From Pleomorphomonas diazotrophica (GTDB lineage Bacteria > Pseudomonadota > Alphaproteobacteria > Rhizobiales > Pleomorphomonadaceae): a DNA stretch of 64,000 bases. The stretch's first letter is position 1, and each line of letters begins with the position of its first letter. The stretch covers positions 1-64,000 of the forward strand of contig NZ_PJNW01000001.1 of NCBI RefSeq assembly GCF_002844595.1. The letters are read 5' to 3'. The notes beneath the pieces are model-generated. The model saw only the letters and a list, made by a program, of their open reading frames with translations, had not been told where the DNA came from and did not search any database. Below are positions 20,181-37,305 of this stretch, in pieces. A program made the translations under genes and the position numbers.

Positions 20181-20329
20181 CCAAGACCTCGGCGCGAGGC
20201 CGCGTCGCGCTGCCGACCGGCCATTTTCGCCCTTTGTCTTCTACCTGACAGACCCGATCACCTTTCGGCGCGATGATCGCGGCCGGGCCTCCAGCGTCCG
20301 ACGGACGCGATTGCTCGGGGAGTGGGATC

Positions 20330-21382
20330 GTGGCGGATCAGGTGGCGGCGGTCGTTCGCGATTATTATGGGGCTCGGCTCACGGGGCAGGGCGATCTCAA
20401 GACCGGCGCCTGCTGCTCCTCCGAGCCGCTGACGCCGCGCCTGCGGTCGATCGTCGCGACGATCCACCCGGACGTGCTGAACCGCTTCTATGGCTGCGGT
20501 TCGCCCATGCCGGACGATGTCGACGGCCTGACCGTGCTGGACCTTGGCTGCGGCAGCGGGCGCGACGTGTTCATGCTGTCGGCGCTGGTCGGGGAAAACG
20601 GCCGGTCGATCGGCGTCGACATGACGCCGGAACAGCTCGCAATCGGCCGCGCCCATCAGGCGGAGCAGGCGCGCGTCTTCGGCCACCGGACGTCCAACGT
20701 CAGCTTCCTCGAAGGGCGGTTCGAGAATCTGTCGTCCCTCGGCATCGCCGACGCTTCGATCGACGTGGTGATCTCCAACTGCGCCCTCAACCTGTCCGAG
20801 GACAAGGCGAGGGTGTTCGCCGAGATCCGCAGGGTGCTGAAGCCCGGTGGCGAGCTTCTGTTCTCCGATGTTTTTGCCAGCCGCCGACTGCCGGCCGACG
20901 TGGCGTCCGACCCGCTCCTGGTGGCGGAATGCCTGGGCGGGGCGCTCTACGTCGAGGATTTCCGCCGGCTGATGGCGGCGACCGGCTGGGCGGACTATCG
21001 CTTGCTCGCCAAGCGGACGATCGCCATCGGTCATCCCTATGCTGAGCTCTTGGTCGGCCCGACCACCTTCTGGTCGATGACAGTGCGCGCCTTCAAGCTC
21101 GATGGCCTCGAGGACTGCTGCGAGGATTACGGTCAAGTCGCGACCTACCTAGGCACTATGCCCGACTCGCCCACCGCCTTCCTTCTCGACGATCATCATC
21201 GCTTCATTGCCGGCAAGCCGATGCTGGTTTGCGGCAACACGGCCGCCATGATCGGCGAAAGCCGCTTCCGGCGGCATTTCCGCGTCGATGGCGACCGCAG
21301 CGTCCATTTTGGGCGGTTCGACTGTTCCCCCTCGGAGAGCCGCGCCGCGATCGATGCGGCCCCGGCGTCGGCATGCTGCTGA
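20330..21382 (+). CDS. ArsM/AS3MT-like SAM-dependent methyltransferase
   Basis: 350 residues from a GTG at 20330 that has GGGGAG seven to twelve bases upstream; an ATG at 20273 in the same frame lacks such a site. The protein resembles arsenite methyltransferases: DLKTGACC, then FYGCG (Cys56), the SAM motif LDLGCGSGRDV (residues 70-80), SNCALNL (Cys151) and ECLGGALY (Cys201). These three cysteines match the arsenic-binding set of the family. It ends in Cys-Cys. The family transfers methyl groups to As(III). Its place 44 bases before the flavodiiron gene suggests co-transcription with the Mop cluster, so a substrate other than arsenite is possible. Confidence 0.85.
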   Translation: MADQVAAVVRDYYGARLTGQGDLKTGACCSSEPLTPRLRSIVATIHPDVLNRFYGCGSPMPDDVDGLTVLDLGCGSGRDVFMLSALVGENGRSIGVDMTPEQLAIGRAHQAEQARVFGHRTSNVSFLEGRFENLSSLGIADASIDVVISNCALNLSEDKARVFAEIRRVLKPGGELLFSDVFASRRLPADVASDPLLVAECLGGALYVEDFRRLMAATGWADYRLLAKRTIAIGHPYAELLVGPTTFWSMTVRAFKLDGLEDCCEDYGQVATYLGTMPDSPTAFLLDDHHRFIAGKPMLVCGNTAAMIGESRFRRHFRVDGDRSVHFGRFDCSPSESRAAIDAAPASACC

Positions 21383-21426: not shown

Positions 21427-22614
21427 ATGATCCCGCAAAAGGTTACGGATGGCATCCACTCGTTTCGCGCCATCGATTGGGACCGCGAGCTGTTCGATGA
21501 GTTGGTGCCGCTGCCGGAGGGCACGACCTACAACGCTTATCTCATCAAAGGCAGCGAGAAGACGGCGCTGATCGACACCATCTACCCGCCGAAGACGGCC
21601 GAGTTCATCGCCGCCATCAAGAAGTCGGGCGTCGAACGGATCGACTATATCGTCGCCAACCACGCAGAGCAGGACCACTCCGGCTCCATCCCCGCCATCC
21701 TCGAGCTCTTCCCCGAGGCCAAGGTGGTGACCAACGCCAAGTGCAAGCGGTTCATCATGGATACGCTGCCGGTCGACCGTGACGCCTTCATCACCGTCGG
21801 CGACGGTCATACTCTGTCGCTCGGCAACAAGACGCTGCAGTTCCTGATGACGCCCTGGGTGCATTGGCCCGATACCATGTGCACCTATGTGCCGGAATCC
21901 CGCATCGCCTTCACCTGCGACTTCCTGGGCGCCCATCTCGCAACCACCGACCTCTACGCCGACGACGAGGCGCGGGTCGAAACGGCGGCCAAGCGCTATT
22001 ATGCCGAGATCATGATGCCCTACCGGGCCTTCTCCAAGGAGGCGGTCGACAAGGTCGGCGCGCTGGCACTCGACTTCATCGCGCCCAGCCACGGTCCGGT
22101 CTATGCCCGCCCGCCCTTCATCCTCGACCTCTACCGGAGCTGGACCTCGGACGCGCCCAAGCCCTTCGTCGTCATCCCCTATGTGTCGATGTACGAGAGC
22201 ACGGCGCAGATGGTCGCCTATCTCACCGACCGGCTCATCGAGCGGGGCATCGGCGTCAAGCCGATCAACGTGGTGGATCTCGACACAGGCGAGTTCGCCA
22301 TGAGCCTCGTCGAGGCGTCGACCGTGGTGTTCGCTTCGCCGACCGTGCTGTCGGGGCCGCACCCCGGCGTCGCCTATGCGGCGCTGCTTGCCAACGTGCT
22401 GGGGCTCAAGGCCAAGTATGCGGCGGTGATCGGCTCCTTCGGCTGGGAGGGCAACCTGCCGGAGATCGTCCAGTCGATGCTGCCGAAGCTCGGCGCTACC
22501 TTCTTCGAGCCGGTGATGGTCAAGGGCCTGCCGCGCGAAGCCGCCTTCGCCGAGCTCGACCGGCTCGCCGACGACATCGCCGCCGCCCATGCCGCCGCGC
22601 CGGTGGCGGCCTGA
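21427..22614 (+). CDS. Flavodiiron protein (FprA type)
   Basis: 395 residues. The amino half is a metallo-beta-lactamase-like diiron domain with ligands in NHAEQDHSG (His79, Glu81, Asp83, His84) plus the HWPDTM, TCDFLGAH and PSHGPV segments. The carboxyl half (from about residue 250) is a flavodoxin domain with the FMN loop VSMYESTAQM. These proteins reduce O2 to water or NO to N2O in the cytoplasm of anaerobes. It has no rubredoxin domain, so it needs an external electron donor. It probably protects the oxygen-sensitive proteins encoded downstream. Confidence 0.95.
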   Translation: MIPQKVTDGIHSFRAIDWDRELFDELVPLPEGTTYNAYLIKGSEKTALIDTIYPPKTAEFIAAIKKSGVERIDYIVANHAEQDHSGSIPAILELFPEAKVVTNAKCKRFIMDTLPVDRDAFITVGDGHTLSLGNKTLQFLMTPWVHWPDTMCTYVPESRIAFTCDFLGAHLATTDLYADDEARVETAAKRYYAEIMMPYRAFSKEAVDKVGALALDFIAPSHGPVYARPPFILDLYRSWTSDAPKPFVVIPYVSMYESTAQMVAYLTDRLIERGIGVKPINVVDLDTGEFAMSLVEASTVVFASPTVLSGPHPGVAYAALLANVLGLKAKYAAVIGSFGWEGNLPEIVQSMLPKLGATFFEPVMVKGLPREAAFAELDRLADDIAAAHAAAPVAA

Positions 22615-22628
22615 CCATGGAGAACGCG

Positions 22629-22901: not shown

Positions 22902-23240
22902 CCTTGTCGCGCCGGTCATCGGGCCCGGCGCGCCTCCCCATGCGTGGTCATACGCATGGAGCGACCGGCTTCAGCCGGAATGCCAGGAAATGGCGGTTTT
23001 CCGCCAACCAGGCTCCTCTCATCCATCTCTATCGTCCAAATCCGTCGCATGGGCGACAGCGATTTCCACGTCGCGAGTCCTGCACCGGACAGATTTCGCC
23101 CTCGCGAAGGTCGAGTCTTGCCAGCATGGACAGGTCGCCGCTCGGCGCCGCCCCGGGGAGGAAGATCGGGACCGGCAAGAAGGCATGGAGACGGCCGACC
23201 GTCCGGGAGCGCTGCGTGCCGCAGGCCGCCGGAGGACGAC
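22902..23240 (+). other. 339-base gap before xdhC with three tandem hairpins
   Basis: No gene is supported. Three perfect stems follow each other: CCATGCGT with ACGCATGG (22938-22959), CCGGC with GCCGG (22965-22978) and TGGCGG with CCGCCA over TTTT (22991-23006). None has a T-run. They sit between the MoaD-like gene and the xdhC-mop unit, so this could be a leader, attenuator or processing site for the molybdoenzyme operon. Confidence 0.55.
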
Positions 23241-24089
23241 ATGGATATCTACAAGGAACTCATCCGCGAGCGGGATGCCGGCCGTCGGGCTGCGCTGGTG
23301 TCCATCGTCACGCAGTCGGGATCGACGCCCTCGGCGACGGCGGCCAAGATGCTGGTGCGCGCCGACGGAACCATCGCCGGCACGGTGGGTGGTGGTGCGG
23401 CTGAGGGCAGGGCGATCATGGTCGCCCGCGATGTGATCGCAACGGGCCAGTCGCAGATGCTGGCCATCGACCTGCACAAGAACCCGACGCTCGACCTCGG
23501 CATGATCTGCGGCGGCAACCTGCAGTTCTACATCGAGGCGATCATGCCCAACCGCACCGTCTACATCTTCGGCGGCGGGCACGTCGGCCTGATGACCGAG
23601 ACGATCTGCCGGACGTTGGGCCTTGAGACGGTGGTCATCGACGACCGGGCCGAGTTCGCCAATGCCGCCCGCTTCCCGGCGGCCGCGAGCACCCACGCCG
23701 GCCCGCTTGCCGAGGCCACGGCCGAGCTGGCACCCAATGCCTCGTCGCTGGTGTTCATCGCCATGCGCGGCCACGCCCTTGATCAGGAGGCGCTCGCCTG
23801 GGCGCTTGGCACGCCGGCCGGCTACATCGGCATGATCGGTTCCAAGCGCAAGGTGCTCACCGTCTACCAGAATCTCATCGCGGCCGGTTTCGCTCCGGAA
23901 GCCTTCGCCCGCGTCCGCGCCCCGGTCGGTCTGGAGATCGGCGCCGAGGGGCCGGAGGAAATCGCGGTCTCCGTCACCGCCGAAATGATCGCTCACATCC
24001 GAGGTGCCGACAAGGCCTGCCCGCTGACGCGGACCATGGATTGGTGCGGGACTGCCCAGGAAGGAAAGCCTCTCTCCGCCGCCAGCTGA
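23241..24089 (+). CDS. XdhC/CoxI-family molybdoenzyme maturation factor
   Basis: 282 residues. The amino domain has the XdhC pattern VSIVTQSGSTPSATAAKMLV and GTVGGGAAEGRAI; the carboxyl half is a Rossmann-like domain, YIFGGGHVG near residue 110, with GYIGMIGSKRK later. XdhC binds the molybdenum cytosine dinucleotide cofactor, keeps it sulfurated and inserts it into xanthine dehydrogenase family enzymes. GGAGG lies five bases before the ATG. The mop gene follows 42 bases downstream, and it is the likely client. Confidence 0.93.
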   Translation: MDIYKELIRERDAGRRAALVSIVTQSGSTPSATAAKMLVRADGTIAGTVGGGAAEGRAIMVARDVIATGQSQMLAIDLHKNPTLDLGMICGGNLQFYIEAIMPNRTVYIFGGGHVGLMTETICRTLGLETVVIDDRAEFANAARFPAAASTHAGPLAEATAELAPNASSLVFIAMRGHALDQEALAWALGTPAGYIGMIGSKRKVLTVYQNLIAAGFAPEAFARVRAPVGLEIGAEGPEEIAVSVTAEMIAHIRGADKACPLTRTMDWCGTAQEGKPLSAAS

Positions 24090-24131
24090 TTGGGGATGCT
24101 GCGACGGATGGAATAACCCTAGGAGGAAGAC

Positions 24132-26897
24132 ATGAAACGCATTTCCGTGAATGTGAACGGCGTGGAGCGCTGGGTCGTTGCCGACCCCAAGCGTTCGCTC
24201 GCCGACGTGCTGCGCGAGCAGATGATGCTCACCGGCTGCAAGGTCTGCTGCGCTGACGGCCAGTGCGGCTCCTGCACCGTGCTGATCGATGGCAAGCCCA
24301 TCCGCGCCTGCGTGACGCCGATGGAAAAGCTCGCCGCCGGCGCGAAGATCGTCACCATCGAGGGCATCGGCACGCCCGAGAACCTGCATCCGCTGCAGAT
24401 CGCCTGGATGGCCCACGGCAGCGCCCAGTGCGGCGTCTGCTCGCCCGGTTTCATCATGTCGGCCAAAGCCTTGCTGGACAAGACCCTCACCCCGACCCGT
24501 GAGGAAGTCCGCGCCTGGTTCCACCGCAACCGCAACCTCTGCCGCTGCACCGGCTACAAGCCGCTGATCGATTCGGTGATGGACGCCGCCGCCATCATGC
24601 GGGGCGACAAGACCATTTACGACGTGATGCCCAAGGCCAAGGAAGACGGCTCCATCCTCGGCACCGAGTACATCCGTCCGTCGGCGGTCGCCAAGGTCAC
24701 CGGCACCTGGGACTTCGGTGCCGACGTGGCGCTGAAGATGCCGGCCGGCACGCTGCGCCTCGCGCTGGTGCAGGCCGAGGTCAGCCACGCGCTCATCAAG
24801 AACATCGATACGGCGGAAGCCGAGAAGATGGTCGGCGTCGAGCGGATCATCACCTGGAAGGACGTGGGCGGCAAGAACGCCATCACCGGCCTCATCACCT
24901 TCCCGACCAACAAGGGCGACGGCTGGGATCGTCCGATCCTCTGCAAGGAGAAGATCTTCCAGTTTGGCGACGCCATCGCCATCGTCGCCGCCGACACCGA
25001 GGAACATGCTCGCGCGGCCGCCAAGAAGGTCAAGGTCGAGGTCGAAGTGCTGCCGGCCTACATGTCCGGTTTCGCGGCTCTCGCGCCCGACGCCATGGAA
25101 ATCCACCCCGGCGTTCCCAACGCCTACTATGAGCAGGGCGTGGTCAAGGGCGCCGACACCAAGCCGCTGATGACCAGCGCCGCCGCCATGGTGGACATCA
25201 CCACCTATTGCTCGCGCCAGCCGCATCTGCACCTGGAGCCGGACTGCGGCGAGGCCTTCGTCGATGACGACGGCGTGCTGACGATCCTGTCGAAGTCGAT
25301 CGGCGTGCACCTGCACCACGCCATGATCTGCCCCGGCCTCGGCATTCCTCCCGAGAAGCTGCGGCTGATCCAGAACCCCACCGGTGGCACCTTCGGCTAC
25401 AAGTTCTCGCCGACCATGGAAGCCTTGCTCGGCGTCGCCGCGCTGGTCACCAAGAAGCCGGTATCGCTGGTCTACGACCAGTATCAGAACATCACCTACA
25501 CCGGTAAGCGCAGCCCGGCGAACATCAACATCCGCCTCGCCTGCGACAAGAACGGCAAGCTCACCGCCATGGAAACCGATTGGTGGCTGGATCACGGCCC
25601 CTATTCGGAGTTCGGCGATCTCGTGACCCTGCGTCAGGCCCAGTTCACCGGCGCCGGCTACCACCTCGAGAACATCCGTGGCAAGGGCCGTACGGTGGCG
25701 ACCAACCATGCCTGGGGCTCGGCCTTCCGCGCCTATGGCTCGCCGCAGTCCTTCCTCGCTTCGGAAATCGCCATCGATATGCTGGCCGAGAAGATGGGCG
25801 AAGACCCCTTCGAGTTCCGCTACAAGAACCTCTACAACGAGACCTCGACGACGCCGACCGGCCAGAAGCCGGAGGTGCTGGTGCTGCCCAAGCTGTTCGA
25901 CATGATCCGGCCGAAGTACCAGGAAGCCAAGAAGCGCTGCGCCGAGTTCAACAAGGCCCACAGCGACAAGAAGCGTGGAGTCGGCGTGTCGCTCGGCATC
26001 TATGGCTGCGGTCTCGATGGGCCCGACAGCTCGGAAGCCCGCGTCGAGATGACGCCGAGCGGCTTCATCGTCCACTCCGGTTGGGAAGACCACGGCCAGG
26101 GCGCCGACCTTTCCGCCCAGACGATGGCACATGAGGTGCTGCGCGCTGCCGGCGTCAAGCCGGAAGAGATCGGTCTCGTCATGGCCGACACCTTCGGTCC
26201 GAACTCCGGTCCGGCCGGCGGCAGCCGCTCCAATGTCTTCTCCGGCAACGCCATCCGCGTCGCAGCCGAGATGATGCTCAACGCCATGAAGAAACCGGGC
26301 GGCGGCTATCGCACCTACAAGGAGATGGTGGCCGAGAACATTCCGCTCTCCTATGACGGCAAGTGGGTGGCGGCGGCCTGCACCGACTGCTCGCCCGAAA
26401 CCGCCCAGGGCAACCCGTTCCCGATCTACATGTACGAGGTGTTCCTGCCGGAAGTGGAGGTCGATCTCGAAACCGGCGAGACCAAGGTGGTCAAGTTCAC
26501 CACGTCGGTCGATGTCGGCACCATCATCAACAAGGCGACGGTGGACGGCCAGATCTACGGTGGTCTCGCGCAGGGCATCGGTCTTGCCCTGACCGAGGAC
26601 TTCGAGGACCTGGAGCTGCACACCAACCTCAAGGACTGCGGCATCCCCTATCCGAAGGACGTGCCCGACGACATCGAGATCCTCTATCTCGAAACGCCGC
26701 GCGACCTCGGACCGTTCGGAGCCGCCGGCGTTGGCGAAGCGCCGCTCACCGCGCCGCATCCGGCCATCCTCAACGCCATCAACAATGCCTGCGGCGTGCG
26801 CGTGTTCCGCGTTCCCGCCCTGCCGGAGGTGATCAGGATGGGGCTTGAGGCGAAGGCCGGAAAGTCCGCCACCAAGTCTGAACTCCAGCACAACTGA
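24132..26897 (+). CDS. mop: Molybdopterin-dependent aldehyde oxidoreductase (Mop type)
   Basis: 921 residues, a single-chain xanthine oxidase-family enzyme. Cluster cysteines are at 40, 45, 48 and 60 (plant-type 2Fe-2S) and at 100, 103, 137 and 139 (helical 2Fe-2S domain), and the active-site glutamate in GVGEAPLTAPH is residue 869. All of these positions are, as I recall them, the same in Desulfovibrio gigas Mop (907 residues). The middle and end bind molybdenum-MCD. There is no FAD domain. The enzyme oxidises aldehydes to acids and passes electrons to a separate acceptor. A perfect AGGAGG precedes the ATG. A double hairpin follows the gene. Confidence 0.95.
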   Translation: MKRISVNVNGVERWVVADPKRSLADVLREQMMLTGCKVCCADGQCGSCTVLIDGKPIRACVTPMEKLAAGAKIVTIEGIGTPENLHPLQIAWMAHGSAQCGVCSPGFIMSAKALLDKTLTPTREEVRAWFHRNRNLCRCTGYKPLIDSVMDAAAIMRGDKTIYDVMPKAKEDGSILGTEYIRPSAVAKVTGTWDFGADVALKMPAGTLRLALVQAEVSHALIKNIDTAEAEKMVGVERIITWKDVGGKNAITGLITFPTNKGDGWDRPILCKEKIFQFGDAIAIVAADTEEHARAAAKKVKVEVEVLPAYMSGFAALAPDAMEIHPGVPNAYYEQGVVKGADTKPLMTSAAAMVDITTYCSRQPHLHLEPDCGEAFVDDDGVLTILSKSIGVHLHHAMICPGLGIPPEKLRLIQNPTGGTFGYKFSPTMEALLGVAALVTKKPVSLVYDQYQNITYTGKRSPANINIRLACDKNGKLTAMETDWWLDHGPYSEFGDLVTLRQAQFTGAGYHLENIRGKGRTVATNHAWGSAFRAYGSPQSFLASEIAIDMLAEKMGEDPFEFRYKNLYNETSTTPTGQKPEVLVLPKLFDMIRPKYQEAKKRCAEFNKAHSDKKRGVGVSLGIYGCGLDGPDSSEARVEMTPSGFIVHSGWEDHGQGADLSAQTMAHEVLRAAGVKPEEIGLVMADTFGPNSGPAGGSRSNVFSGNAIRVAAEMMLNAMKKPGGGYRTYKEMVAENIPLSYDGKWVAAACTDCSPETAQGNPFPIYMYEVFLPEVEVDLETGETKVVKFTTSVDVGTIINKATVDGQIYGGLAQGIGLALTEDFEDLELHTNLKDCGIPYPKDVPDDIEILYLETPRDLGPFGAAGVGEAPLTAPHPAILNAINNACGVRVFRVPALPEVIRMGLEAKAGKSATKSELQHN

Positions 26898-26908
26898 GTT
26901 CCGACAGT

Positions 26909-26970
26909 CGAGGAGCGTCCCGCCCGCTCCTCGAAAACGCGGGCGGCCCGTCCTCTCCCGGGCCGCCCGC
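26909..26970 (+). other. Double hairpin between mop and the FeS/FAD gene
   Basis: Two perfect GC stems stand in series: 9 bases (26909-26917 with 26925-26933, followed by AAAA) and 12 bases (26939-26950 with 26959-26970). No T-run follows on the plus strand. This is the only sizeable gap from xdhC to the AMP ligase and could trim expression downstream or stabilise the mop message. Confidence 0.6.
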
Positions 26971-27005
26971 ACCTCATCGGTCAGCAATCACGCATCGAGA
27001 CCATC

Positions 27006-29336
27006 ATGGACGGCGATCAGGTCAAGGCCTGGGAAGCGCTCTGCATCGAGGAACAGCCGCCGGCCTGCAGCGCCGCCTGTCCCTTGCGCGTCGATGCGCG
27101 CGCCATGGCCGAGAAGATGGCCGCCGGAGATTTCACCGGCGCCATGGGCCTTTATGCCCGCGTCGTTCCCTTCCCCGCCATCATCGCCCACATCTGCGAG
27201 CATCCGTGTGAGAGCGCCTGCCGCCGGGCCGAGGCCGGCGGCGCCGTTCGTATCGGCGCTCTGGAGCGGGCGCTCGTCGAGGAGGCCTACCCGACCATAC
27301 GCCGCACCGCCCAGCGGGCGCGCAGACCGAAGACCATTGCCATCGTCGGCGCCGGGCTGGCCGGCCTCACGGCGGCAGCCGATCTCGCCATGAAGGGGCA
27401 CGCCGTCACCGTCCTCGAGGCGGAAGCCCGGCCACTCGAACGTCTCCGCCACGACATCGACCCAACCGTGCTGCCGCCTTCGGCGATCGAGGCTGATCTC
27501 GGCGCGCTCACGGCGCTCGGCGTCGACATCCGCTGCCGGCAACGGGTGACCGGCGGCGCCGGCCCGTCGTCGCTCGACGACCTGATCGCCGGCCACGATG
27601 CCGTCCTCCTGGCCATCGGTCCCGGCCCGGCCAGCCAGTTCGCAGGAACGCTGCGGCTTACGACCGCTGGTCGGCTCGACCTCGATCCGCAGACGCTGGC
27701 GAGCTCGCGACCGGCGGTGTTCGGCAGCAGCCGTCACGGCGGCGACGACGAACCCTATTCGGCCATTCTCTCCGTCCGCGACGGCCGGCGGGCCGCGGTT
27801 TCCATCGATCGCTTCCTTCAGGGCGCCTCGCTGACGGCGAGCCGCGTCGACGACAGCGCCACCGGCACCTGCCTTTATGTCGACACCGCGCGTCACGCCG
27901 CAGTGCCGCCCGTTCCGCCCTCCGACCCCATTGCCGGCTATTGCCATGCCGAGGCCATGGAGGAAGCGGCGCGCTGCTTCCCCTGCCACTGCCTCGAATG
28001 CGTCAGGGCCTGCGCCTATCTCGCCCACTACAAGACCTATCCCAAGCGAGCGGTGCGCGAGATCTACAACAACGACTCGATCGTCATGGGCAACCGCAAG
28101 TCCAACCGGATGATCGACAGTTGCGCCCTGTGCGGTCTGTGCGAGGCGCTCTGTCCCAACGACCTCGCCATGGGAGACGTCTGCCTCGACGCGCGCCAGA
28201 GCATGGTCGAGCGCGGCCACATGCCGGCGTCGCACCACGACTTCGCGCTACGCGACATGGCCTTCAGCCGCTCGGACGAGGTTGCCTTCGTCCGCCATCA
28301 GCCGGGACATGATCGAAGCGCCGTGCTGTTCTTCCCCGGCTGCCAGCTTCCGGCCTCGGCGCCGCGTCAGGTCGAGGCGATCTACCGCCATCTCTGCGAT
28401 CGCATTCCCGGCGGGGTCGGCTTCCTGCTCGACTGCTGCGGTGCGCCCGCCCATTGGTCGGGGCGCAAGGCGCTGCACGGGGAGGTGCTCGATCATCTCA
28501 GCGCTGTCTGGGAAGGGCAGGGGCGGCCGCGCCTCGTGACGGCCTGCTCCACCTGCCTGAAGGAGATCGGTGAGTTCCTGCCGGACATACCGGTTTCCTC
28601 CCTCTGGACGGAGCTCGCCGCCATCGGCCTGCCGGAAGCCGCCGTGCCGAGACCTGTCGGACCGCTCGCCATCCACGATCCCTGCACCAGCCGACATGCC
28701 GTCGACGTTCAGGCGGCGGTGCGGTCGATCGCCGCATCACTGGGAGCCGAGGTGCGCGAGCTGACCGGCGCCGAAAAGACCACCTGCTGCGGCTATGGTG
28801 GCCTTGCCTCCTTTGCCAACCCCGAAGTCGGCAACGCCTTCGTCGACCGGCGGATCGAGGAAAGCGACGACGACTTCCTCGCCTATTGCGCCATGTGCCG
28901 CGACAATTTCGCCCGGCGCGGCAAACGCGCCCTTCATCTCATTGACCTTGTGTTTCCCTGTGACGACGATCCGGCGGCGCGTCCGGATCCCGGCTTTTCC
29001 GGACGCCGCGACAACCGGTTGCGGCTGAGCCGGCGCATGCGGTGCGACCTCTGGGGAGAAAGCATGAGCGATCCCGTTCCGCCCGTGGTCCTGGTGATTG
29101 CCGACGCCGTCCGCGCCGACATCGAGCGCAAGCTGCTGCTGGTTGACGACATCGCCGAGGTGATCGCCGAGGCAGAGCGAACCGGGCGCATGCTGAAGGA
29201 TAGGACGACCGGCCATCTCACCGCCTCCGGCCGCATTGGCACGGTGACGACCTGGGTCGAGTACGAGCCGACCGAGGTCGGCTATGTCGTGCATCGCGCC
29301 TATGGCCACCGCATGCAGGTCGAGGTGAAGCCATGA
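27006..29336 (+). CDS. FAD/iron-sulfur/CCG-domain electron-transfer protein
   Basis: 776 residues. In order: a GltD-like amino domain with Cys13, 21, 25 and Cys64, 68, 72; a nucleotide-binding motif VGAGLAG (114-120); a 4Fe-4S pair CFPCHCLEC-VRAC (324-336) and CALCGLCEALCP (373-384); then two HdrB/GlpC-like CCG repeats (C446, CC477-478, C514, C517 and C560, CC594-595, C628, C631). A further ~90 residues follow a low-complexity linker. It resembles the DVU_1558-type 'dicluster-binding' proteins I recall next to Mop. A likely role is taking electrons from the aldehyde oxidoreductase. ATG at 29064 (Met687), with GGGGAG upstream, could start the tail as a separate protein. Confidence 0.85.
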   Translation: MDGDQVKAWEALCIEEQPPACSAACPLRVDARAMAEKMAAGDFTGAMGLYARVVPFPAIIAHICEHPCESACRRAEAGGAVRIGALERALVEEAYPTIRRTAQRARRPKTIAIVGAGLAGLTAAADLAMKGHAVTVLEAEARPLERLRHDIDPTVLPPSAIEADLGALTALGVDIRCRQRVTGGAGPSSLDDLIAGHDAVLLAIGPGPASQFAGTLRLTTAGRLDLDPQTLASSRPAVFGSSRHGGDDEPYSAILSVRDGRRAAVSIDRFLQGASLTASRVDDSATGTCLYVDTARHAAVPPVPPSDPIAGYCHAEAMEEAARCFPCHCLECVRACAYLAHYKTYPKRAVREIYNNDSIVMGNRKSNRMIDSCALCGLCEALCPNDLAMGDVCLDARQSMVERGHMPASHHDFALRDMAFSRSDEVAFVRHQPGHDRSAVLFFPGCQLPASAPRQVEAIYRHLCDRIPGGVGFLLDCCGAPAHWSGRKALHGEVLDHLSAVWEGQGRPRLVTACSTCLKEIGEFLPDIPVSSLWTELAAIGLPEAAVPRPVGPLAIHDPCTSRHAVDVQAAVRSIAASLGAEVRELTGAEKTTCCGYGGLASFANPEVGNAFVDRRIEESDDDFLAYCAMCRDNFARRGKRALHLIDLVFPCDDDPAARPDPGFSGRRDNRLRLSRRMRCDLWGESMSDPVPPVVLVIADAVRADIERKLLLVDDIAEVIAEAERTGRMLKDRTTGHLTASGRIGTVTTWVEYEPTEVGYVVHRAYGHRMQVEVKP

Positions 29337-29536
29337 CAGCGACGTCCGGCGTTCCCGATCTCGTCTGCGCCCGCTGCGACAAGCCGCTGGAGATGCGGAA
29401 GGTCGAGGCGAGCTATCTCGGCCAGACCTTTCCGGTCGAACTGCCCTGCTGCCCGTCTTGCGGCTTCGTCTACATCTCAGAAGAGCTGGCTTACGGCCGA
29501 ATGCTGAAAGTCGAGCAGGCGCTGGAGGACAAGTGA
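29333..29536 (+). CDS. Small four-cysteine redox or zinc protein (DVU_1557-like)
   Basis: 67 residues with two Cys pairs, CARC (residues 12-15) and CCPSC (39-43), in a rubredoxin-knuckle-like layout: VCARCDKPLEMRKVEASYLG then ELPCCPSCGFVYI. It may bind iron or zinc. It overlaps the previous gene by ATGA and the next by one base. I recall a family named after Desulfovibrio DVU_1557 with this size and pattern; function is unknown. Confidence 0.8.
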   Translation: MTATSGVPDLVCARCDKPLEMRKVEASYLGQTFPVELPCCPSCGFVYISEELAYGRMLKVEQALEDK

Positions 29537-30204
29537 TGGACAAGCTCGCCTCCGTCCACGGCCTGTTCGGTTGCGGTTGCGTCGAGGGTGCCCCGGGCGA
29601 ATGGCTGCGGCCGGGAGACGGGGCGATCGTCAAGGTGCTGTTCGAGCGGTCCGGCCTGCGTCTCGGCGCCAAGGTGCTGGATGTCGGCTGCGGCGCCGGC
29701 GAGAGCCTCGCCTGGCTTGAACGGCGCGGTTTCTCCGGCATCGGCATCGACCGCGACGAGCGGACGCTGGCGCTCGCCGCCTCACGCGTCGCCTCGCCGC
29801 TGTTCCACGGCGACGGCGCTCACCTGCCGTTCACCGACACCTGCCTGGACGCCGTGCTGTCCGAGTGCAGCTTGTCGCAGATGCCGGACCGGCGCGCGGC
29901 GCTCGCCGAATGGCGGCGCGTGCTGAAGGCCGGCGGCCGGCTGTTGCTCGCCGACGTTGACTGGCCGGGTTCGGATGGACGCGACGGTCTTGCCGAGGAC
30001 ATCGCGTCGGCCGGCTTCCGCATCCTCCACGACGAGGATCGGTCGGACGTGCTTGCCCGCTTTGTCGCCCGCTTCATCTTCCATTATGGCTCGCTCGATC
30101 CACTGTGGGGCGATCATGACTGCGCGCCGCCGGCGGAAGGCCGGCCGGGCTATCGGCTGATCGTCGCCGAACCGACACCGCCGACAGGGAGTGAACGTCC
30201 ATGA
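29536..30204 (+). CDS. Class I SAM methyltransferase (DVU_1556/TrsM-like)
   Basis: 222 residues. The SAM-binding motif VLDVGCGAGESLAWL is near residue 45, with DGAHLPF and LLLADVDWPG later. An early FGCGCVEG segment gives two cysteines near residue 13-15 that are not part of the usual fold. GGAGG lies upstream and the ATG overlaps the previous stop. I recall a methyltransferase of this size at the same place in the sulfate-reducer cluster. The substrate is unknown. Confidence 0.82.
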   Translation: MDKLASVHGLFGCGCVEGAPGEWLRPGDGAIVKVLFERSGLRLGAKVLDVGCGAGESLAWLERRGFSGIGIDRDERTLALAASRVASPLFHGDGAHLPFTDTCLDAVLSECSLSQMPDRRAALAEWRRVLKAGGRLLLADVDWPGSDGRDGLAEDIASAGFRILHDEDRSDVLARFVARFIFHYGSLDPLWGDHDCAPPAEGRPGYRLIVAEPTPPTGSERP

Positions 30205-30653
30205 GCGAGGACGCCTTCCGCGTCGCCGAACTGCTGCTCGACGATTTCAAATGCAGCCACGTCCTGATGCGGCTCGCCCTCGATGCCCAGGGCCGCGACG
30301 ACCCCGATCTCGTCCGCGCCATGTCCGGCCTCGCCCTCGGCATGGGCCAGGGCTTCAACTGCGGCGCGCTGTCGGCCGGTTGCTGCGTCATCGGCTACTA
30401 TGCCGGGCGTGGCGGCGATGGCGAGCGCGAACATCCCGAACTGGGCGCCATGCTCGACGATTTCACCGGCTGGTTCAACGCCTCAGCGACAGGTCAGTAT
30501 GGCGGGATCGATTGTTCCGATATCATGCAGTTCGACGAGGGGCTGAAGCGCCAGCGCTGTCCGGAGCTGATCGTCGCCACCTGGGAGAAGGTCAAGGAAG
30601 CGCTCGCCGCCCACGGCATCGACATCGCCGTCCCACCGGAGGAGGCCTCGTGA
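30201..30653 (+). CDS. C-GCAxxG-C-C family redox protein (DVU_1555-like)
   Basis: 150 residues. The motif FNCGALSAGCCVIGYY (about 53-66) is the C-G-A-x-x-G-C-C signature of a family of putative redox-active proteins, and a further DCSDI with a later RCPELI gives more conserved cysteines. No signal peptide. ATGA overlap with the methyltransferase and GTGA overlap with the NTP transferase show tight coupling. The biochemical role of the family is not established. Confidence 0.85.
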   Translation: MSEDAFRVAELLLDDFKCSHVLMRLALDAQGRDDPDLVRAMSGLALGMGQGFNCGALSAGCCVIGYYAGRGGDGEREHPELGAMLDDFTGWFNASATGQYGGIDCSDIMQFDEGLKRQRCPELIVATWEKVKEALAAHGIDIAVPPEEAS

Positions 30654-31792
30654 ACGCTTCGGTCGAGCTCTCATCGACACGCATTGCGGTCGTGATCCTG
30701 GCGGCCGGCTGGTCGTCGCGGATGGGCGGCCTGAAACCGCTGCTGCCCTTCGGCGACCATACCGTCCTCGGACACGTGCTCTCGACGATAGCCGACGCGG
30801 CCGTCGGGCCGGCCTATGTCGTCGTCGGCAACGAGGCGGGGCGCGTGGCGCCGGTGGCCGAGGATCACGGTGCGGCGGTGGTCGAGAATGCCGCCTTCGC
30901 GGAGGGCATGATGTCCAGCGTCAAGGCCGGGATCTCCGTGCTGCCCGCCAGCGTGGACGCGGTGATGATCCTGCCGGCCGACGTGCCGCTCGTCAGGGCG
31001 GAAACGCTGCGCCGGCTTGCCCAAAGCGCCGGGTCGAGCGACGCAGCGGTGCTTCGTCCGACCTTTCGCGGGCGGCCCGGACATCCGCCGCTCATCAGCC
31101 GCTCGCTGTTTGCGGAAATCCTGGCCGCGCCGCCCGACGCGACACTGCGCGACGTTCTGGAGCGACATGAGCCGCGGGCTCTCCCCGTCATCGACAGCGG
31201 CATATTGCGCGACATGGACTATCCTGACGACTATCGCCGCCTTGCCGCGTCGCTGGCCGAGCGTCGCCACCCCGACGAGGCGGAATGCGAAGCGATGCTG
31301 GAGGCGGCCGGCACGCCGGAGCCGACGTGTCGTCACAGCCGCGCCGTCGCGCGCCTTGCGGTGGATCTCGCCGCCCGGCTGATCGCCAAGGGGCTCTCTC
31401 TCGACCTTGGAGCGGTCAGGGCCGGCGCGCTACTGCACGACATCGCCAAGGGCGAGCCCGACCACGCGGCGGTCGGTGCCCGGCGCGTCGCGGCCTACGG
31501 ATTTGCAGAGGTCGCCGATATCGTCGCGGCCCACATGGAGATCGCCTACGCGCCGGGGCAACCGATCGACGCCCGCCACGTGGTGTTTCTTGCCGACAAG
31601 CTGATCAAGGAAGAGCGCCGCGTCGGCCTTGAGGAGCGTTTCGCGCCGGCGTTTACCGCCTTCGCCGACGACCCTGCCGCCCTGGCCAGCGTCCGGCGCC
31701 GCCACGCCGCCGTCGCCGCCGTGCTGGCGGCGGTGGAGGCCCTGACCGGTCCGCTCGGTGACCCCGCCTCGCCCTTGGGAAATGGGCGATGA
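30650..31792 (+). CDS. MobA/MocA-like NTP transferase fused to HD phosphohydrolase (DVU_1551-like)
   Basis: 380 residues from a GTG that overlaps the previous stop and has GGAGG upstream. The amino half has the nucleotidyltransferase motif VILAAGWSSRMGGLKPLLPF (residues 11-30) and LPADVPLV; it resembles MocA, which makes molybdenum cytosine dinucleotide for XdhC clients. The carboxyl half is an HD domain: CRHSRAVARLA, then LLHDIAKGEPDH. A natural role is making the MCD cofactor of the Mop protein, with the HD part cleaving a phosphate ester or nucleotide. That role is inferred from context. Confidence 0.87.
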   Translation: MNASVELSSTRIAVVILAAGWSSRMGGLKPLLPFGDHTVLGHVLSTIADAAVGPAYVVVGNEAGRVAPVAEDHGAAVVENAAFAEGMMSSVKAGISVLPASVDAVMILPADVPLVRAETLRRLAQSAGSSDAAVLRPTFRGRPGHPPLISRSLFAEILAAPPDATLRDVLERHEPRALPVIDSGILRDMDYPDDYRRLAASLAERRHPDEAECEAMLEAAGTPEPTCRHSRAVARLAVDLAARLIAKGLSLDLGAVRAGALLHDIAKGEPDHAAVGARRVAAYGFAEVADIVAAHMEIAYAPGQPIDARHVVFLADKLIKEERRVGLEERFAPAFTAFADDPAALASVRRRHAAVAAVLAAVEALTGPLGDPASPLGNGR

Positions 31793-33180
31793 CCGCACCG
31801 GTTCGCTTGTCCTTCGGGCGCACCCGCAGCGTCTGCCCCGACTGTCTCAAGACCATTCCGGCCGAGCGCTTTGCCATCGGCGACACTGTCTATCTCGACA
31901 AGACCTGCCCGGAGCATGGCCGTGTCGTGACGCCGGTCTGGCGGGGGCTCCTGAGCTACGAGATTTGGGCGAGGAGCCGCAGTGCCACCTCGGCGCCGGT
32001 GAGCGTGGCGACCGATATCGCCGAGGGGTGCCCGAGGGATTGCGGTCTTTGCGTCGATCACCGGCAGCAAGGCTGCTGCGTGCTGATCGAGGTGACATCG
32101 CGCTGCGATCTGGTCTGCCCGGTCTGTTTTGCCTCGGCCGGACGTCACGGTGCCGACATGCCGATCGATGACATCGCCGTTGCCCTCGAAGAGCTGCGGG
32201 CGAGCAGCGGTCAGGTGCACATCCAGTTGTCGGGCGGCGAGCCGACGGTGCGCGACGATCTGCCTGAGATCGTCGCCCTGGTGCGGGCCAAGGGCTTCGA
32301 CTTCATTCAGCTCAATACCAACGGCATCAGGATCGGGTGCGAGCCCGATTATCTCGCCGCGCTGGCCAATGCCGGCCTCGACTGTGTCTTCCTGCAGTTC
32401 GACGGCGTCAGCGATGCCGTCTATCGGCAGTTGCGCGGCCGCGACCTGCTCGCGGCAAAGCGGCTCGCCATCGAAAGCGCGCGCGCCTCCGGGGTCGGCG
32501 TGGTTCTGGTGCCGACGCTGGTGCCCGGCGTCAACGCCGGCGAGATCGGTGCCATCGTCGATTTCGCCAAGAGGGAGATGCCGACCGTGCGGGCCGTGCA
32601 CTTCCAGCCGATCTCCTATTTCGGGCGCAATCCCGGTGCGCCGCGCGACGAGGATCGCGTGACTCTACCGGAGGTGATGGAGGCGCTGATAAGGCATGCC
32701 GGCGGATCCATCCGACTGGAGGATTTCCGCCCCGGTTCGGCCGAAAACCCGTTCTGCTCCTTCAGCGGCCGCTTCGCCGTCGACCCGGCGGGTCAGCTTC
32801 GCTCCGATCCGGAGATGGCGCCCGGCTGCTGCGGCCCCGCCGCCGAAGCGGCAACGGCGGCGGCCTGCTGCGGCCCGGCGCCGAGGCGGTCGCCGGAGGT
32901 TGTGCGCGCCCAACGCTATGTGGCCGGCCAGTGGACGGGCGCCACGGTGGAAGCCTCTTCGGCACCCGGCCTCGAGGCCTTCGACGCCTTTCTCCAACAA
33001 AGGAGCCGTCATCTGTCGCTGTCCGGCATGGCCTTCCAGGACGCCTGGACGCTCGACCTCGATCGCCTGCGCCAATGCCACATCCATGTGGCGAAGCCCG
33101 ATGGCAGCGTCATACCCTTCTGCGCCTACAACCTGACCGACCTCAGGGGACGGTCGCTCTATCGCGAGCCCAAGGTATGA
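31789..33180 (+). CDS. Cysteine-rich radical SAM protein (TrsS-like)
   Basis: 463 residues. CxxxCxxC for the SAM 4Fe-4S cluster is at Cys106, 110, 113 (SRCDLVCPVC); the SAM-binding SGGEPT is at 148-153. Ahead of it lie CPDC (16-19) with CPEHG (40) and CPRDCGLC (81-88). After the barrel come PFCSF (323), a duplicated CCGP motif (347-350 and 360-363) and a closing C430xH...PFC445 segment. The extra Cys pattern recalls the Tes/MJ0619 group of radical SAM enzymes, which use auxiliary clusters to join carbons or methylate pterins. It overlaps both neighbours by ATGA. I recall 'TrsS' as the family name; the reaction is unknown. Confidence 0.85.
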   Translation: MTAPVRLSFGRTRSVCPDCLKTIPAERFAIGDTVYLDKTCPEHGRVVTPVWRGLLSYEIWARSRSATSAPVSVATDIAEGCPRDCGLCVDHRQQGCCVLIEVTSRCDLVCPVCFASAGRHGADMPIDDIAVALEELRASSGQVHIQLSGGEPTVRDDLPEIVALVRAKGFDFIQLNTNGIRIGCEPDYLAALANAGLDCVFLQFDGVSDAVYRQLRGRDLLAAKRLAIESARASGVGVVLVPTLVPGVNAGEIGAIVDFAKREMPTVRAVHFQPISYFGRNPGAPRDEDRVTLPEVMEALIRHAGGSIRLEDFRPGSAENPFCSFSGRFAVDPAGQLRSDPEMAPGCCGPAAEAATAAACCGPAPRRSPEVVRAQRYVAGQWTGATVEASSAPGLEAFDAFLQQRSRHLSLSGMAFQDAWTLDLDRLRQCHIHVAKPDGSVIPFCAYNLTDLRGRSLYREPKV

Positions 33181-34481
33181 GCGGGACGCTGGACGCCTGG
33201 GTGGGACGGACGATCGGCGTCGGACGGCTGCCGAGCCGCGACGATCTCGATGCCTATCAACTCCGGTGCCTCAACGAGACGCTCGCCCACGCGCGGGCCG
33301 CAAGCCTCTTCTATCGGTCGCAAGCCGGCTGGCCGGGGCGGGACCATCTCGCCGATATCAAAGACCTCGTCCGATTTCCGTTGACGACGCCCGCCAATCT
33401 GTCGCGCGGCGATCCGTCGCTCATCGCCCTGCCGCTTCGCGACGCGGCGCGCCTGGTGACCATTCCGACATCCGGCACGTCAGGGCCCCAGAAGCGCCTG
33501 TTCTTCACCGAAGCGGACATCGAGGCGACCATTGCCTACTTCGAGCACGGCATGGCAACCATCACCCGCCCCGGCGGCCACGTGGCCATCGCCTTTCCCG
33601 CCGAGCGGCCGGACAGCGTCGGCGATCTCCTGATGCGGGGGCTCACACGCCTCGGCGCCGTCCCCATGACGCTGCCGGTCAGCGGTTCGGTGGATGCGCT
33701 TGTCGGCGCCTTGCGGGACATGCAACCGGCGGCGATCGCCGGCATGCCGGTGACGCTGGGGGCAGCCGCCCGGCGCATGGCGACCGACGGCGGCCCTCCG
33801 CTTGCGATCGAGACGGCACTGGTCAGCGCCGACAGCGTGTCGCCGAGCTTCAAGGCGGCGCTGGCCGCCATCTGGGGAACGGAGGTTTTCGAGCACTGGG
33901 GCATGACAGAAACCGGATATGGCGGTGCGCTCGCCTGCCATGCCCATGACGGCCTGCACATCCGCGAAACCGATCTTTACGTCGAGATCGTCGACGCCGA
34001 CACCGGCGGTCTGCTGCCGGCCGGGGACGAGGGAGAAATCGTCATTACCACCCTGCGACGACGGGGGCTGCCCCTCATCCGCTACCGCACCGGGGACCGG
34101 GGCAGCATCGCCGAGAGCCCATGCCGATGCGGGTCCCTGCTCCGCCGGTTGCGCCTCGGCGGGCGGATCGGAGAGCCGATTGTGTTGGGCCGGGAAAGAC
34201 ATCTGCCGCGCGAGATCCTCGATGATGCCATCTTCGCGGTGGACGGCGTCATCGACTTCTCGGTCGCACTGCGATCCGCGGGGCATCCCCGCCTCGCCAT
34301 CGGTTTGGTAGCGGATCACCCTGAGGTGGCGGACAATGTACGGGCGGCCCTTCTGCACCATCCTTTACTTGGTCCGGTGCTGCAATCACCCGAAGTTGAC
34401 ATCGCTGTCGAAATAACATCCGATTCAAAACTCACCCTCTGCCGAAAGCGCAAGGTGTTGGAGGCTCAAGGGGAGGGGTAA
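33177..34481 (+). CDS. PaaK-like AMP-dependent CoA ligase family protein (DVU_1553-like)
   Basis: 434 residues. The adenylation P-loop is IPTSGTSGPQKRLFF (about 99-113), with HWGMTETGYGG and LIRYRTGDRG later, as in phenylacetate-CoA ligases. The family activates carboxylic acids as acyl-AMP. The product of the Mop enzyme would be a carboxylic acid, so it may activate that acid or a biosynthetic precursor. It overlaps the radical SAM gene by four bases and is the last gene of the string. Confidence 0.85.
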   Translation: MSGTLDAWVGRTIGVGRLPSRDDLDAYQLRCLNETLAHARAASLFYRSQAGWPGRDHLADIKDLVRFPLTTPANLSRGDPSLIALPLRDAARLVTIPTSGTSGPQKRLFFTEADIEATIAYFEHGMATITRPGGHVAIAFPAERPDSVGDLLMRGLTRLGAVPMTLPVSGSVDALVGALRDMQPAAIAGMPVTLGAAARRMATDGGPPLAIETALVSADSVSPSFKAALAAIWGTEVFEHWGMTETGYGGALACHAHDGLHIRETDLYVEIVDADTGGLLPAGDEGEIVITTLRRRGLPLIRYRTGDRGSIAESPCRCGSLLRRLRLGGRIGEPIVLGRERHLPREILDDAIFAVDGVIDFSVALRSAGHPRLAIGLVADHPEVADNVRAALLHHPLLGPVLQSPEVDIAVEITSDSKLTLCRKRKVLEAQGEG

Positions 34482-34711
34482 ATGGTTGAAGATGAAAGAC
34501 AAACCTGACGGTTATACCGGAACGGGCGACATAGACTGAAGGATCATAACGATTTAGCTCAGCCGAGCTTATGATCGAACTCATGAAAGGAAAGCCCGCT
34601 TTTGCCTGACGTTCGGCCTAAGGCCGCGTGGCTCATCCGAAGTAAACCCGTCGCGGACGCGCAACGAACGTCTTCGGACCTCAGCAATGGACGCACCCGG
34701 GAGGTGCTGGA
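34482..34711 (+). other. Gap before the regulator gene
   Basis: 230 bases without a gene. It contains a nested inverted repeat at 34542-34576 (listed separately). The spacing suggests the regulator is transcribed from its own promoter here, but no clear -35/-10 pair is visible. Confidence 0.5.
34542..34576 (+). promoter_or_regulatory. Nested inverted repeat, possible operator or cruciform
   Basis: GATCATAA (34542-34549) is repeated inverted as TTATGATC (34569-34576); between them AGCTC pairs with GAGCT (34556-34560 and 34565-34569). The outer arms are AT-rich and unlike nearby GC-rich hairpins, and there is no T-run. It sits between the operon end and the regulator start, so an operator for the Crp-type regulator or a transcript-end structure are both possible. 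Confidence 0.5.
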
Positions 34712-36457
34712 ATGGTCCTGCCCCAGCGGCTCGATACCGAAACATGCGCAATTCCCTCCGGCGGACCGGCCGCCTGCGGAACGTGCAGGAGCACCTCGGG
34801 ACGACATGAGCGCAACGCGCGCCCCGGCCCGATTCCGGACCAGGGCAAGCTCCTGGCCGTCCGCTCGAAGTTCATGTCCGACGGCATTGTCCCCGAGGGC
34901 ATTCCGCTGCCGATCCTTCGTTCGTGGGAGCGCAGCAGCCTGCACGGCCTTTCCAACGGAACGCCGCGCCGCAGCGAAACCCGCCTCACTGAAACCGCGC
35001 TGAAGGAACTGAGGGAGCGGAACGAGGAACTGCTGATATCCGCTTGGGGCGAGATCGTCTCGCTCTGCCGGGAAACGCAGCCGCTCGGCGGTGTGGTGGT
35101 GCTGACCGACCCCAACGGAGTGGTGCTGGTCCGCCTTGGCGACAGTAGTTTCAGCGACGAAGCGGAGCGGCTTGGCCTGTGCCCAGGCGGCGACTGGTCG
35201 GAACAAGCCAAGGGCACCAATGCCATCGGGACGGCCCTGTCCGAGCGCTTTGCCCTCTCGGTCATAGGTGCCGAGCATTTCTGCAACGGCAACACCGACA
35301 TCAGTTGCTCGGCGGTGCCGATCATCGACCCTTGCGGTGCCCTGGCCGGCATCATCGATCTGTCGACATCGGTCACGGTGGCGCATGACTATTCGCTGCC
35401 GCTGTTGAAGCGGGCGGCCAACGAAATCGAGCGGCGCCTGTTCGAGCGGCGCTATGGCCGCTTCGAGCAGATGCACCTGCACTCGAACCCGCGCCTTCTC
35501 GGCGGCCCCAACGAGGGACTGCTTGCCTTCGACAGCGACCGCCTGATCGGCGCCAACCGCACGGCCGTCGAGCTGATCGGCCTGAGCTGGTCGGCGATCG
35601 GCGTCATGCATTTCCGCCAACTGTTCTCGGTTCAGCACGCCAGCGTCACGCGGCAGGCCTCCGCCGACGAATGCGTAGTGCAATCCGCGCAGGGGTCGAC
35701 CTTCTTCGCCCGCATGCAGATGCCGACGAAATCGCACGGCGTCGCCGACGCGGCGAAGACCATCGACCGCGAGCCGGCGCGGCCGGCGCTTGCCGAGCCG
35801 GCCACCGGCAGAGACGCGCTGCCGCATGTGGTGCTCGAGGCACTGCAGGGCGAGGGCGGCCCCAAGCTGCGCAAGATGAAGGTCGGCCAACTGGTCTATG
35901 GCGCCAACCTGATGGATGAGACCGGGGAGGCCATCCTGGTGGTCGCCTCGGGCCGCTATCGCTGCTTTGCCTCGCATGAGGGCAAGGAGCTGACGCTCTT
36001 CACGCTGGGGCCTGGCGATGCCGTGCCGCTCCAGCCGGAGATGGTGGTCGAGGTGCGCAAGGAGGGCGAGGCGGCGGTGATCGCTCGCGCGGCCTTCCGG
36101 CGGCTGACCCGCGATCATCCCGAGTTCGGCATGTGCATTCTGCCGGCCGTCGAGAAGATGCTGAACCGGTCGCTGACCATGGTCGGCGAGATGGCCTTCC
36201 GCAGCGTGCGCTATCGGCTGATCCGTTACCTCTGCGAAATGGCCGAGCATGACGGTCGCCAGACGCCGAATGGGGTGGTGATTGAGTCCGCGCCGCATGG
36301 CGACGACCTCGCCATGGCCATCGGCGCGGCGCGCCAGTCGGTGTCGACGGTGCTGGCCGAGCTCATCCGGGCGGGCGACGTTCAGCGGCCGGCGCCGCGG
36401 ACCTTCGTCATTCCCAATATCGAAAGCCTCAAGGAGGAGCTGCGGATCTTGCGTTGA
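34712..36457 (+). CDS. AcoR-like sensor fused to Crp/Fnr-type DNA-binding module
   Basis: 581 residues from an ATG with GGGAGG seven bases upstream. The amino part matches AcoR-type activators: ILRSWERS (about 69-76), a GAF region GTNAIGTAL...GAEHFC...CSAVPIIDPCG, and a PAS-like GLLAFDSDRLIGAN. But there is no AAA+ sigma-54 domain. From about residue 375 a cyclic-nucleotide-binding-type fold (VVLEALQGEGG...) is followed by a Crp-type helix-turn-helix (HGDDLAMAIGAARQSVSTVLAEL). It lies just after the Trs-like genes on the same strand and probably controls them. The ligand is unknown. Confidence 0.88.
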   Translation: MVLPQRLDTETCAIPSGGPAACGTCRSTSGRHERNARPGPIPDQGKLLAVRSKFMSDGIVPEGIPLPILRSWERSSLHGLSNGTPRRSETRLTETALKELRERNEELLISAWGEIVSLCRETQPLGGVVVLTDPNGVVLVRLGDSSFSDEAERLGLCPGGDWSEQAKGTNAIGTALSERFALSVIGAEHFCNGNTDISCSAVPIIDPCGALAGIIDLSTSVTVAHDYSLPLLKRAANEIERRLFERRYGRFEQMHLHSNPRLLGGPNEGLLAFDSDRLIGANRTAVELIGLSWSAIGVMHFRQLFSVQHASVTRQASADECVVQSAQGSTFFARMQMPTKSHGVADAAKTIDREPARPALAEPATGRDALPHVVLEALQGEGGPKLRKMKVGQLVYGANLMDETGEAILVVASGRYRCFASHEGKELTLFTLGPGDAVPLQPEMVVEVRKEGEAAVIARAAFRRLTRDHPEFGMCILPAVEKMLNRSLTMVGEMAFRSVRYRLIRYLCEMAEHDGRQTPNGVVIESAPHGDDLAMAIGAARQSVSTVLAELIRAGDVQRPAPRTFVIPNIESLKEELRILR

Positions 36458-36463
36458 GGGGGC

Positions 36464-37204: not shown

Positions 37205-37305
37205 GTCTGGCGCCCACGGGTATCTTGGCGGCTGAAAAGGACGATCGGCACCGGACCGGTATCGCAGGTGGCCCAAGCGCCATTCTTCAGGGAGAAAAGC
37301 ACGTC

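Follow-up and report, generated by a model that had tools for sequence, protein, structure and literature searches.

What signal, and which genes, are connected by a regulator whose amino half belongs with sigma-54 activators and whose carboxyl half belongs with Crp/Fnr proteins? The gene that raises this question lies in Pleomorphomonas diazotrophica, on the 64,000-nucleotide stretch analysed here (hereafter the window), behind the genes of a trs/aldehyde oxidoreductase operon. The window's ORF list contains a 581-residue frame at exactly 34712-36457 on the forward strand, and its G+C content by codon position (0.68/0.49/0.85) has a coding-like third-position pattern. The fusion is neither a frameshift nor an assembly artefact, because nine further loci encode the same architecture (79–92% identity, eight of them spanning residues 1–581 and one residues 1–576); these come from seven named Pleomorphomonas and two MAGs named only as Proteobacteria, and the pattern scan of species genomes behind them could detect close relatives only. 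The features discussed are collected in Table 1.

Table 1. Features of the fusion regulator and of the trs/aldehyde oxidoreductase operon, in window positions.
Feature	Position	Strand	Remarks
Predicted operator TGTC-N8-GACA	20235..20250		TGTCTTCTACCTGACA; upstream of trs/aldehyde oxidoreductase operon
ArsM-like methyltransferase	20330..21382	+	First gene of operon; below NCBIfam cut-offs
ODP/flavodiiron-like protein	21427..22614	+	Pfam ODP above cut-off, NCBIfam below
XdhC-type maturation protein	22944..24089	+	Start probably near 23241, by eye
Molybdopterin-dependent aldehyde oxidoreductase	24132..26897	+	NF045668, 1542.8 bits, cut-off 1100
Pyridine nucleotide-disulfide oxidoreductase/dicluster protein	27006..29336	+	NF045663
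DVU_1556 family methyltransferase	29458..30204	+	NF045667
DVU_1551 family NTP transferase	30191..31792	+	NF045665
Radical SAM protein TrsS	31789..33180	+	NF045646
DVU_1553 family AMP-dependent CoA ligase	33177..34481	+	NF045666
Fusion regulator, 581 aa	34712..36457	+	Cys-containing N terminus, GAF, PAS-like region, linker, CooA-type beta-roll and winged helix
N-terminal extension	34712..34846	+	C12 and C22 invariant, C25 nearly so, in 16 aligned fusion proteins
GAF domain, residues 125-242	35084..35437	+	Pfam PF01590, E 1.7e-8
PAS-like region, residues ~255-340	35474..35731	+	Bounds by eye; without Pfam match
CooA-like beta-roll, residues ~387-468	35870..36115	+	Q441 at position of CooA heme-ligand His77
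Winged-helix DNA-binding domain HTH_Crp_2, residues 502-575	36215..36436	+	Pfam, 4.8e-9
Recognition helix RQSVSTVLAEL, residues 541-551	36332..36364	+	RQxxST pattern as in R. rubrum CooA

An earlier note, made from the sequence alone, had pointed to four AcoR motifs in the amino half, to the absence of the sigma-54 AAA+ domain and to a Crp/Fnr module in its place, and all of this held up in our searches: the translation contains SWERS, GTNAIGTAL, GAEHF and CSAVP and has no GAFTGA motif, a Pfam scan found no sigma-54 domain (PF00158) in the 581-residue protein, and where a Fis-type C-terminal helix-turn-helix (HTH) would stand Pfam identified HTH_Crp_2. The carboxyl half can be assigned more closely, being Crp-type by sequence and specifically CooA-type, with the heme-ligand histidine lost. 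A Pfam cNMP_binding match to residues 402–467 scored 15.7 bits, below cut-off, and the linker that connects the sensor to the CooA-type module is variable in the aligned fusions, by eye roughly 30–45 residues long. As the fusion carries no AAA+ domain, GAFTGA motif or Fis-type HTH, we would expect no sigma-54 remodelling. The reading that we prefer, and consider likely, is that a heme-less CooA-type module governed by an AcoR-type sensor switches Mo-/W-dependent aldehyde oxidation from CooA-like operators.

The window copy adjoins the trs operon listed in Table 1, whose first gene we start at a conserved GTG at 20330, judged from alignment, the ORF list starting it at 20273; the word "regulator" is absent from the main text of PMC6365974 and PMC13328260. 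A tRNA-Val gene (20061-20135) lies just ahead of the operon, a position that the alignment does not show in all species; a genomic island at this tRNA was considered and rejected, the 3' end of the tRNA having no second copy in the window at up to three mismatches. An Rfam search of 18000-37500 returned only the tRNA above a gathering score and so gave no support to a known riboswitch ahead of the regulator. Ahead of the regulator gene an inverted repeat, GATCATA...TATGATC (34542-34576), is kept in 9/9 aligned loci, and four loci (L008, L011, L012 and L013) carry CGTTATATA...TTATATCGA just upstream (L009: CGCTATATA), the window copy being degenerate. This element is similar to the ModE consensus that PMC545781 gives, and the regulator gene may itself be under Mo control. 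Downstream, a moaC gene occupies 37225-37788 in the window, and in four other genomes the gene directly after the trs-type regulator encodes a radical SAM protein (G446:C64, G449:C41, G450:C261 and G451:C23, weak matches to the TrsS model) that is probably moaA.

A second copy in the same genome, 55% identical to that of the window, belongs to a locus with the order AOR (aldehyde:ferredoxin oxidoreductase; PF01314/PF02730), ThiF, CCG protein, MoeA, paralog, Tup-like B, C and A, and MoaA. The AOR is probably tungsten-dependent, judging from its family. The three Tup-like proteins and MoeA fall short of NCBIfam's equivalog cut-offs, and the TupC match is one among many to ABC ATPases, so that uptake of tungstate by the TupABC-like genes is likely, not certain; the Tup-like scores count against our reading. 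Before the AOR operon lies a strongly conserved dyad, ATTATGT-N8-ACATAAT (L046:2840-2900, L125-L131), which we rejected as an operator of the fusion since a version of it occurs in the regulator-free genome G467 and it is absent from the window at up to three mismatches; another regulator likely acts there.

The signal would be read by the amino half, which by its sequence matches is an AcoR/DhaR-type GAF (plus PAS-like) sensor. The NCBIfam DhaR model covers residues 67–294 (1.1e-20; 73.5 bits, far below the equivalog cut-off of 551), and among PDB entries the first 364 residues matched, at E-values up to 1, nothing but the DhaR structure 4lrx (residues 118–292, 8.3e-6). All eight relatives of the sensor half that were scanned whole, six from other genera (L049, L050, L051, L052, L053 and L054) and two from fusion-free genomes of the genus (L118 and L119), are sigma-54 proteins with HTH_8 (Fis HTH). 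At four of these loci (L049, L050, L052 and L053) the sigma-54 relative and an aldehyde dehydrogenase gene (PF00171) are divergently oriented. None was seen by eye near L118 or L119, nor among ORFs of at least 280 residues near L051, which has an NRAMP-like transporter nearby, and these three loci count against our reading; at L054 the single ORF scanned, which is non-adjacent, gave no match. It also counts against our reading that DhaR, the one relative of the sensor half with a solved structure, answers to partner proteins and is not known to answer to a small molecule. Acetoin binds AcoR (PMC10018347). Since the sensor relatives, the gene neighbours and the target enzymes all point there, the GAF/PAS half would most likely bind or feel an aldehyde or related carbonyl compound, or else a partner tied to aldehyde metabolism.

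The main rival to this keeps the chimera and its operators and replaces the signal by metal or redox state, be it molybdate/tungstate, the status of the cofactor, or the N-terminal cysteines acting as a switch. It is the main rival because both loci handle Mo/W cofactors, the two copies standing among genes for these and one predicted operator preceding the TupABC-like uptake genes, and because C12 and C22 are invariant; together with C25 they stay conserved in both paralogs while the rest of the N-terminal extension varies, and may possibly form a metal or thiol site. However, the sensor is AcoR/DhaR-like and four of its sigma-54 relatives stand beside aldehyde dehydrogenase genes, no Mo/W genes were noticed by eye at two of those four loci, which were read with translations, and no pattern like C12/C22/C25 was seen by eye in L049, L050, L051 or L118. 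We therefore regard sensing of metal or redox state as unlikely, though a serious contender. In the two fusion-free genomes a sigma-54 AcoR-type gene is, by eye, convergent with an adjoining FixK-like Crp gene (L118:8207-10894 in G467; L119:330-3380 in G459); this Crp gene was rejected as a source of the Crp half on its recognition helix, which differs by eye.

The carboxyl half raises the question of whether CO could be sensed as well. Against PDB sequences the last 217 residues matched CooA chains first (2FMY, 2.1e-19; 2HKX, 2.9e-18; 1FT9, 9.6e-17), and the next, non-CooA, Crp/Fnr protein (2.0e-8) was 8–11 orders of magnitude weaker. The alignment with CooA extends over ~170 residues, and the RQxxST recognition helix is kept in all 15 sequences of a Crp-half alignment (eight fusions, six stand-alone homologues and R. 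rubrum CooA); that of 2FMY reads RQTVSV. Heme in CooA is held by His77 and the N-terminal Pro2, and its binding requires the absence of CRP residues 72–82 (PMC12937710). The fusion aligns with 2FMY and 1FT9 ungapped across this stretch, for which reason no CRP-type phosphate cassette is expected. In the His77 column the eight fusions have Q, Q, R, R, G, G, Q and G, with Gln in the window protein and His in none, and the module is internal, beginning ~365 residues into the chain, which leaves no free N-terminal Pro2 ligand. As His77 is replaced, the CooA-type heme site has very probably been lost, and with it CO becomes an unlikely ligand. Five of the six stand-alone homologues have His in this column; the sixth (L076:1501-2091, genome G449) has Arg, and perhaps it too is no CO sensor any more.

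The proposal that the carboxyl half is still a heme-binding CO sensor, to which the GAF half would add another input, draws on the fact that its closest structural relatives sense CO and that a Pleomorphomonas-like isolate converts CO to H2 and CO2 (PMC5603099); against the loss of both CooA ligands, in 8/8 aligned fusions for His77, we judge it very improbable. Structural modelling agrees with the sequence result as far as it goes. A full-length model (pLDDT 43.5, from a ten-sequence alignment of close relatives) was poor and was discarded; a model of the carboxyl half reached pLDDT 62.8, with 74–92 in its last eight ten-residue blocks, the winged-helix part. A Foldseek search with this low-confidence model returned CooA 2FMY first (2.8e-14), with a superposition so weak (TM 0.37, rmsd 11.6) that it backs the sequence result and adds no independent geometry. 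The earlier note would have been refuted by a structure prediction in which the carboxyl half is no Crp fold; this did not occur, the half being Crp-type by sequence and, on the low-confidence model, by Foldseek.

A further question is where the regulator might bind. CooA sites have been described as TGTC-N8-GACA (PMC7306483) and as TGTCGGCNNGCCGACA, and TGTCGGCTAGCCGACA is listed before D. vulgaris cooSC (PMC545781). A motif of this form was first noticed in aligned trs promoters and then looked for at further sites. In the window it lies ~80 bp before the conserved start of the first trs operon gene, and the palindrome is present in the trs promoters of 9/9 fusion-bearing genomes examined, its arms fixed and its spacers varying; of the twelve fusion-bearing genomes this count omits G461, G464 and G465, in which two contigs end too early and one is broken. 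At the AOR locus a palindrome follows the paralog in 9/9 genomes, and in the three where the next gene was read behind it (G000, G465 and G458) that gene is tupB. The moeA-tupB gaps of the fusion-free G467 and G459 contain no exact TGTC-N8-GACA, and in G459, whose trs cluster begins with xdhC, unlike that of the window, the gap upstream of xdhC has no site at up to one mismatch.

These operators are predictions, and several points count against our reading. The 4.53-Mb genome has 34 exact sites against 23 for a reversed-pattern control, a modest excess from which most exact matches must be put down to chance; in favour of our reading, the chance of matches in the trs, tup and hydrogenase intervals jointly is ~4.5e-9, an optimistic figure since not all intervals were chosen beforehand. 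It counts against our reading, too, that no exact site was found in the AOR operon promoters, nor in the regulator's own promoter in the window or the listed loci. Of the promoter regions that the earlier note had singled out, 20,180-20,330 holds the palindrome at 20235-20250, and 22,902-23,240 and 34,482-34,711 hold no exact one. Exact matches also occur at window positions 37064-37079 and 49506-49521, the former probably by chance, as it lies inside ORF 36464-37276.

The genome of the window has one stand-alone homologue of the Crp half (C9:40409, 42% identity); among PDB entries it matches R. rubrum CooA best (1FT9, 9.4e-26). It adjoins hypB-like and NnrS genes ~2.2 kb from an energy-converting hydrogenase-type operon with 1272-aa antiporter-like, NADHdh, ferredoxin-like, 30-kDa and 49-kDa/NiFe-type subunits; no CO dehydrogenase was found among the ORFs scanned at this locus. 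Before the hydrogenase operon stands TGTCGGCTAGCCGACA, identical to the published D. vulgaris site, and a single copy of this 16-mer is present in each of L178 and L179, close to the CooA homologue. That homologue could use the same predicted sites as the fusions, which counts against our reading. The fusion might instead be a heme-less competitor mainly antagonising CooA at shared sites, without switching aldehyde genes. The CooA-type palindromes and the perfect site near a CooA homologue would suit such a role; both copies, however, are linked to aldehyde oxidoreductase operons and not to coo-like genes, and the spacers of the trs and tup sites are unlike that of the coo-like site, so that we give this idea only a slight chance.

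The spread of the fusion and its link to the two loci were traced across genomes. Matches were found in 9 of 385 genomes sampled from the class (at 1e-30) and 38 of 398 from the phylum (at 1e-40), the best three candidates per genome being scored in both, and in 18 of 61 from the order (at 1e-20); across these samples only the genome of the window, which is included, matched end to end, the rows of other genomes representing the sensor half only. As these counts come from samples, rare fusions in further genomes are possible. Among 20 genomes of the family the fusion is present in 12/14 of the window's genus and 0/6 of the others. TrsS is found in all 14 genus genomes, AOR in 11, the trs-type fusion in 12 and the AOR-type fusion in 9. 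In 11 of the 12 fusion-bearing genomes TrsS lies ~1.5–1.6 kb upstream of the trs-type fusion on the same strand; in G465 the two are near the ends of different contigs. The AOR-type fusion occurs in 9/11 genomes with AOR and 0/3 without, and in 9/9 paralog-bearing genomes the paralog's start and the AOR match share a strand and lie ~5.4 kb apart. The genetic link to the locus that the note had presumed is thus present.

Its description of the regulator as the likely trs switch is supported, in that linkage and the palindrome before the trs operon speak for it. The regulator is not indispensable, since two of the 14 genomes (G459 and G467) lack any fusion although TrsS and AOR are both present, which also counts against our reading. 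In these, by eye, genes other than the regulator come after the ligase gene; a moeA-tupB gap of 0.27–0.29 kb has no regulator either. That the regulator is a passenger, its position accidental and its targets elsewhere, would fit these two genomes, but linkage at two separate loci (with the trs pair on two contigs in one assembly) and palindromes at both leave this scarcely credible.

Taken together, we propose a one-component transcription regulator in which an AcoR/DhaR-type sensor is joined to a CooA-type Crp module minus the histidine and the free N terminus that hold heme in CooA. The protein would dimerise, most likely via the long helix of the Crp module, and the state of the sensor would pass through the variable linker to this module, whose winged helix would then bind TGTC-N8-GACA operators, recruit ordinary RNA polymerase and activate sigma-70-type promoters. 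The genes switched in this way would be the Mo-dependent aldehyde oxidoreductase/Trs operon for the window copy and, for the paralog, the TupABC-like uptake genes (probably for tungstate) beside the AOR operon.

In a sensor tree the sigma-54 sensors stand apart from the fusion sensors, among which the trs-type (two rows) and AOR-type (four rows) are each supported. In a tree of Crp halves a long branch (2.33) separates fusions from CooA homologues, which counts against our reading, and the base is unresolved; given this base and the great length of the CooA outgroup branch, we claim no order of events. More tentatively still, and as a doubtful rather than a probable scenario, we speculate that a CO sensor was recycled as a DNA-binding part without a sensor of its own: a CooA, its heme lost, would have acquired an AcoR-type sensor, been duplicated and carried CooA-type operators to Mo/W aldehyde-oxidation genes. 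One operator family might then respond both to CO, by way of true CooA, and to aldehydes, by way of the chimeras. If our reading is true, the regulator would exemplify a sensor swap made in nature, both of whose parents have relatives that can still be recognised within this one genus: sigma-54 proteins with an AcoR-type sensor in G459 and G467, and a CooA homologue that stands alone. It would be a testable case of an allosteric Crp module working after loss of its heme ligand. It would also provide a candidate switch and operator for the poorly understood Trs/aldehyde oxidoreductase and an AOR system in culturable bacteria.

Each half of the fusion is already known; in the open-licence literature, a limited body, we found neither their pairing nor the heme-ligand loss nor the shared operator type. 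With CooA (PDB 1FT9, 2FMY and 2HKX) the fusion shares a carboxyl half alignable over ~170 residues, the RQxxST helix, the absence of a gap at the CRP 72–82 stretch and TGTC-N8-GACA-type palindromes in linked promoters; it differs in having Q/R/G for His77, no free N-terminal proline, a sensor and linker of ~365 residues ahead of the module, and a linkage to aldehyde oxidoreductases. With AcoR/DhaR-type sigma-54 activators, some relatives of which adjoin aldehyde dehydrogenase genes, it shares the motifs of a GAF plus PAS-like amino half, but not the AAA+ domain, GAFTGA or Fis-type HTH. Like CRP of the cAMP type it has a Crp module with winged helix, yet its cNMP_binding match is below cut-off and a CRP-type phosphate cassette is not expected. 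RcoM, a PAS-LytTR CO regulator, similarly places a sensor domain ahead of a non-sigma-54 output, the domains being PAS and LytTR in RcoM whereas they are GAF/PAS-like and CooA-type in the fusion. With a beta-roll, whose Pfam match alone is below cut-off, and a Crp winged helix, the fusion is by its sequence a variant within the Crp/Fnr superfamily that is related to CooA, and is neither a CooA nor a sigma-54 activator.
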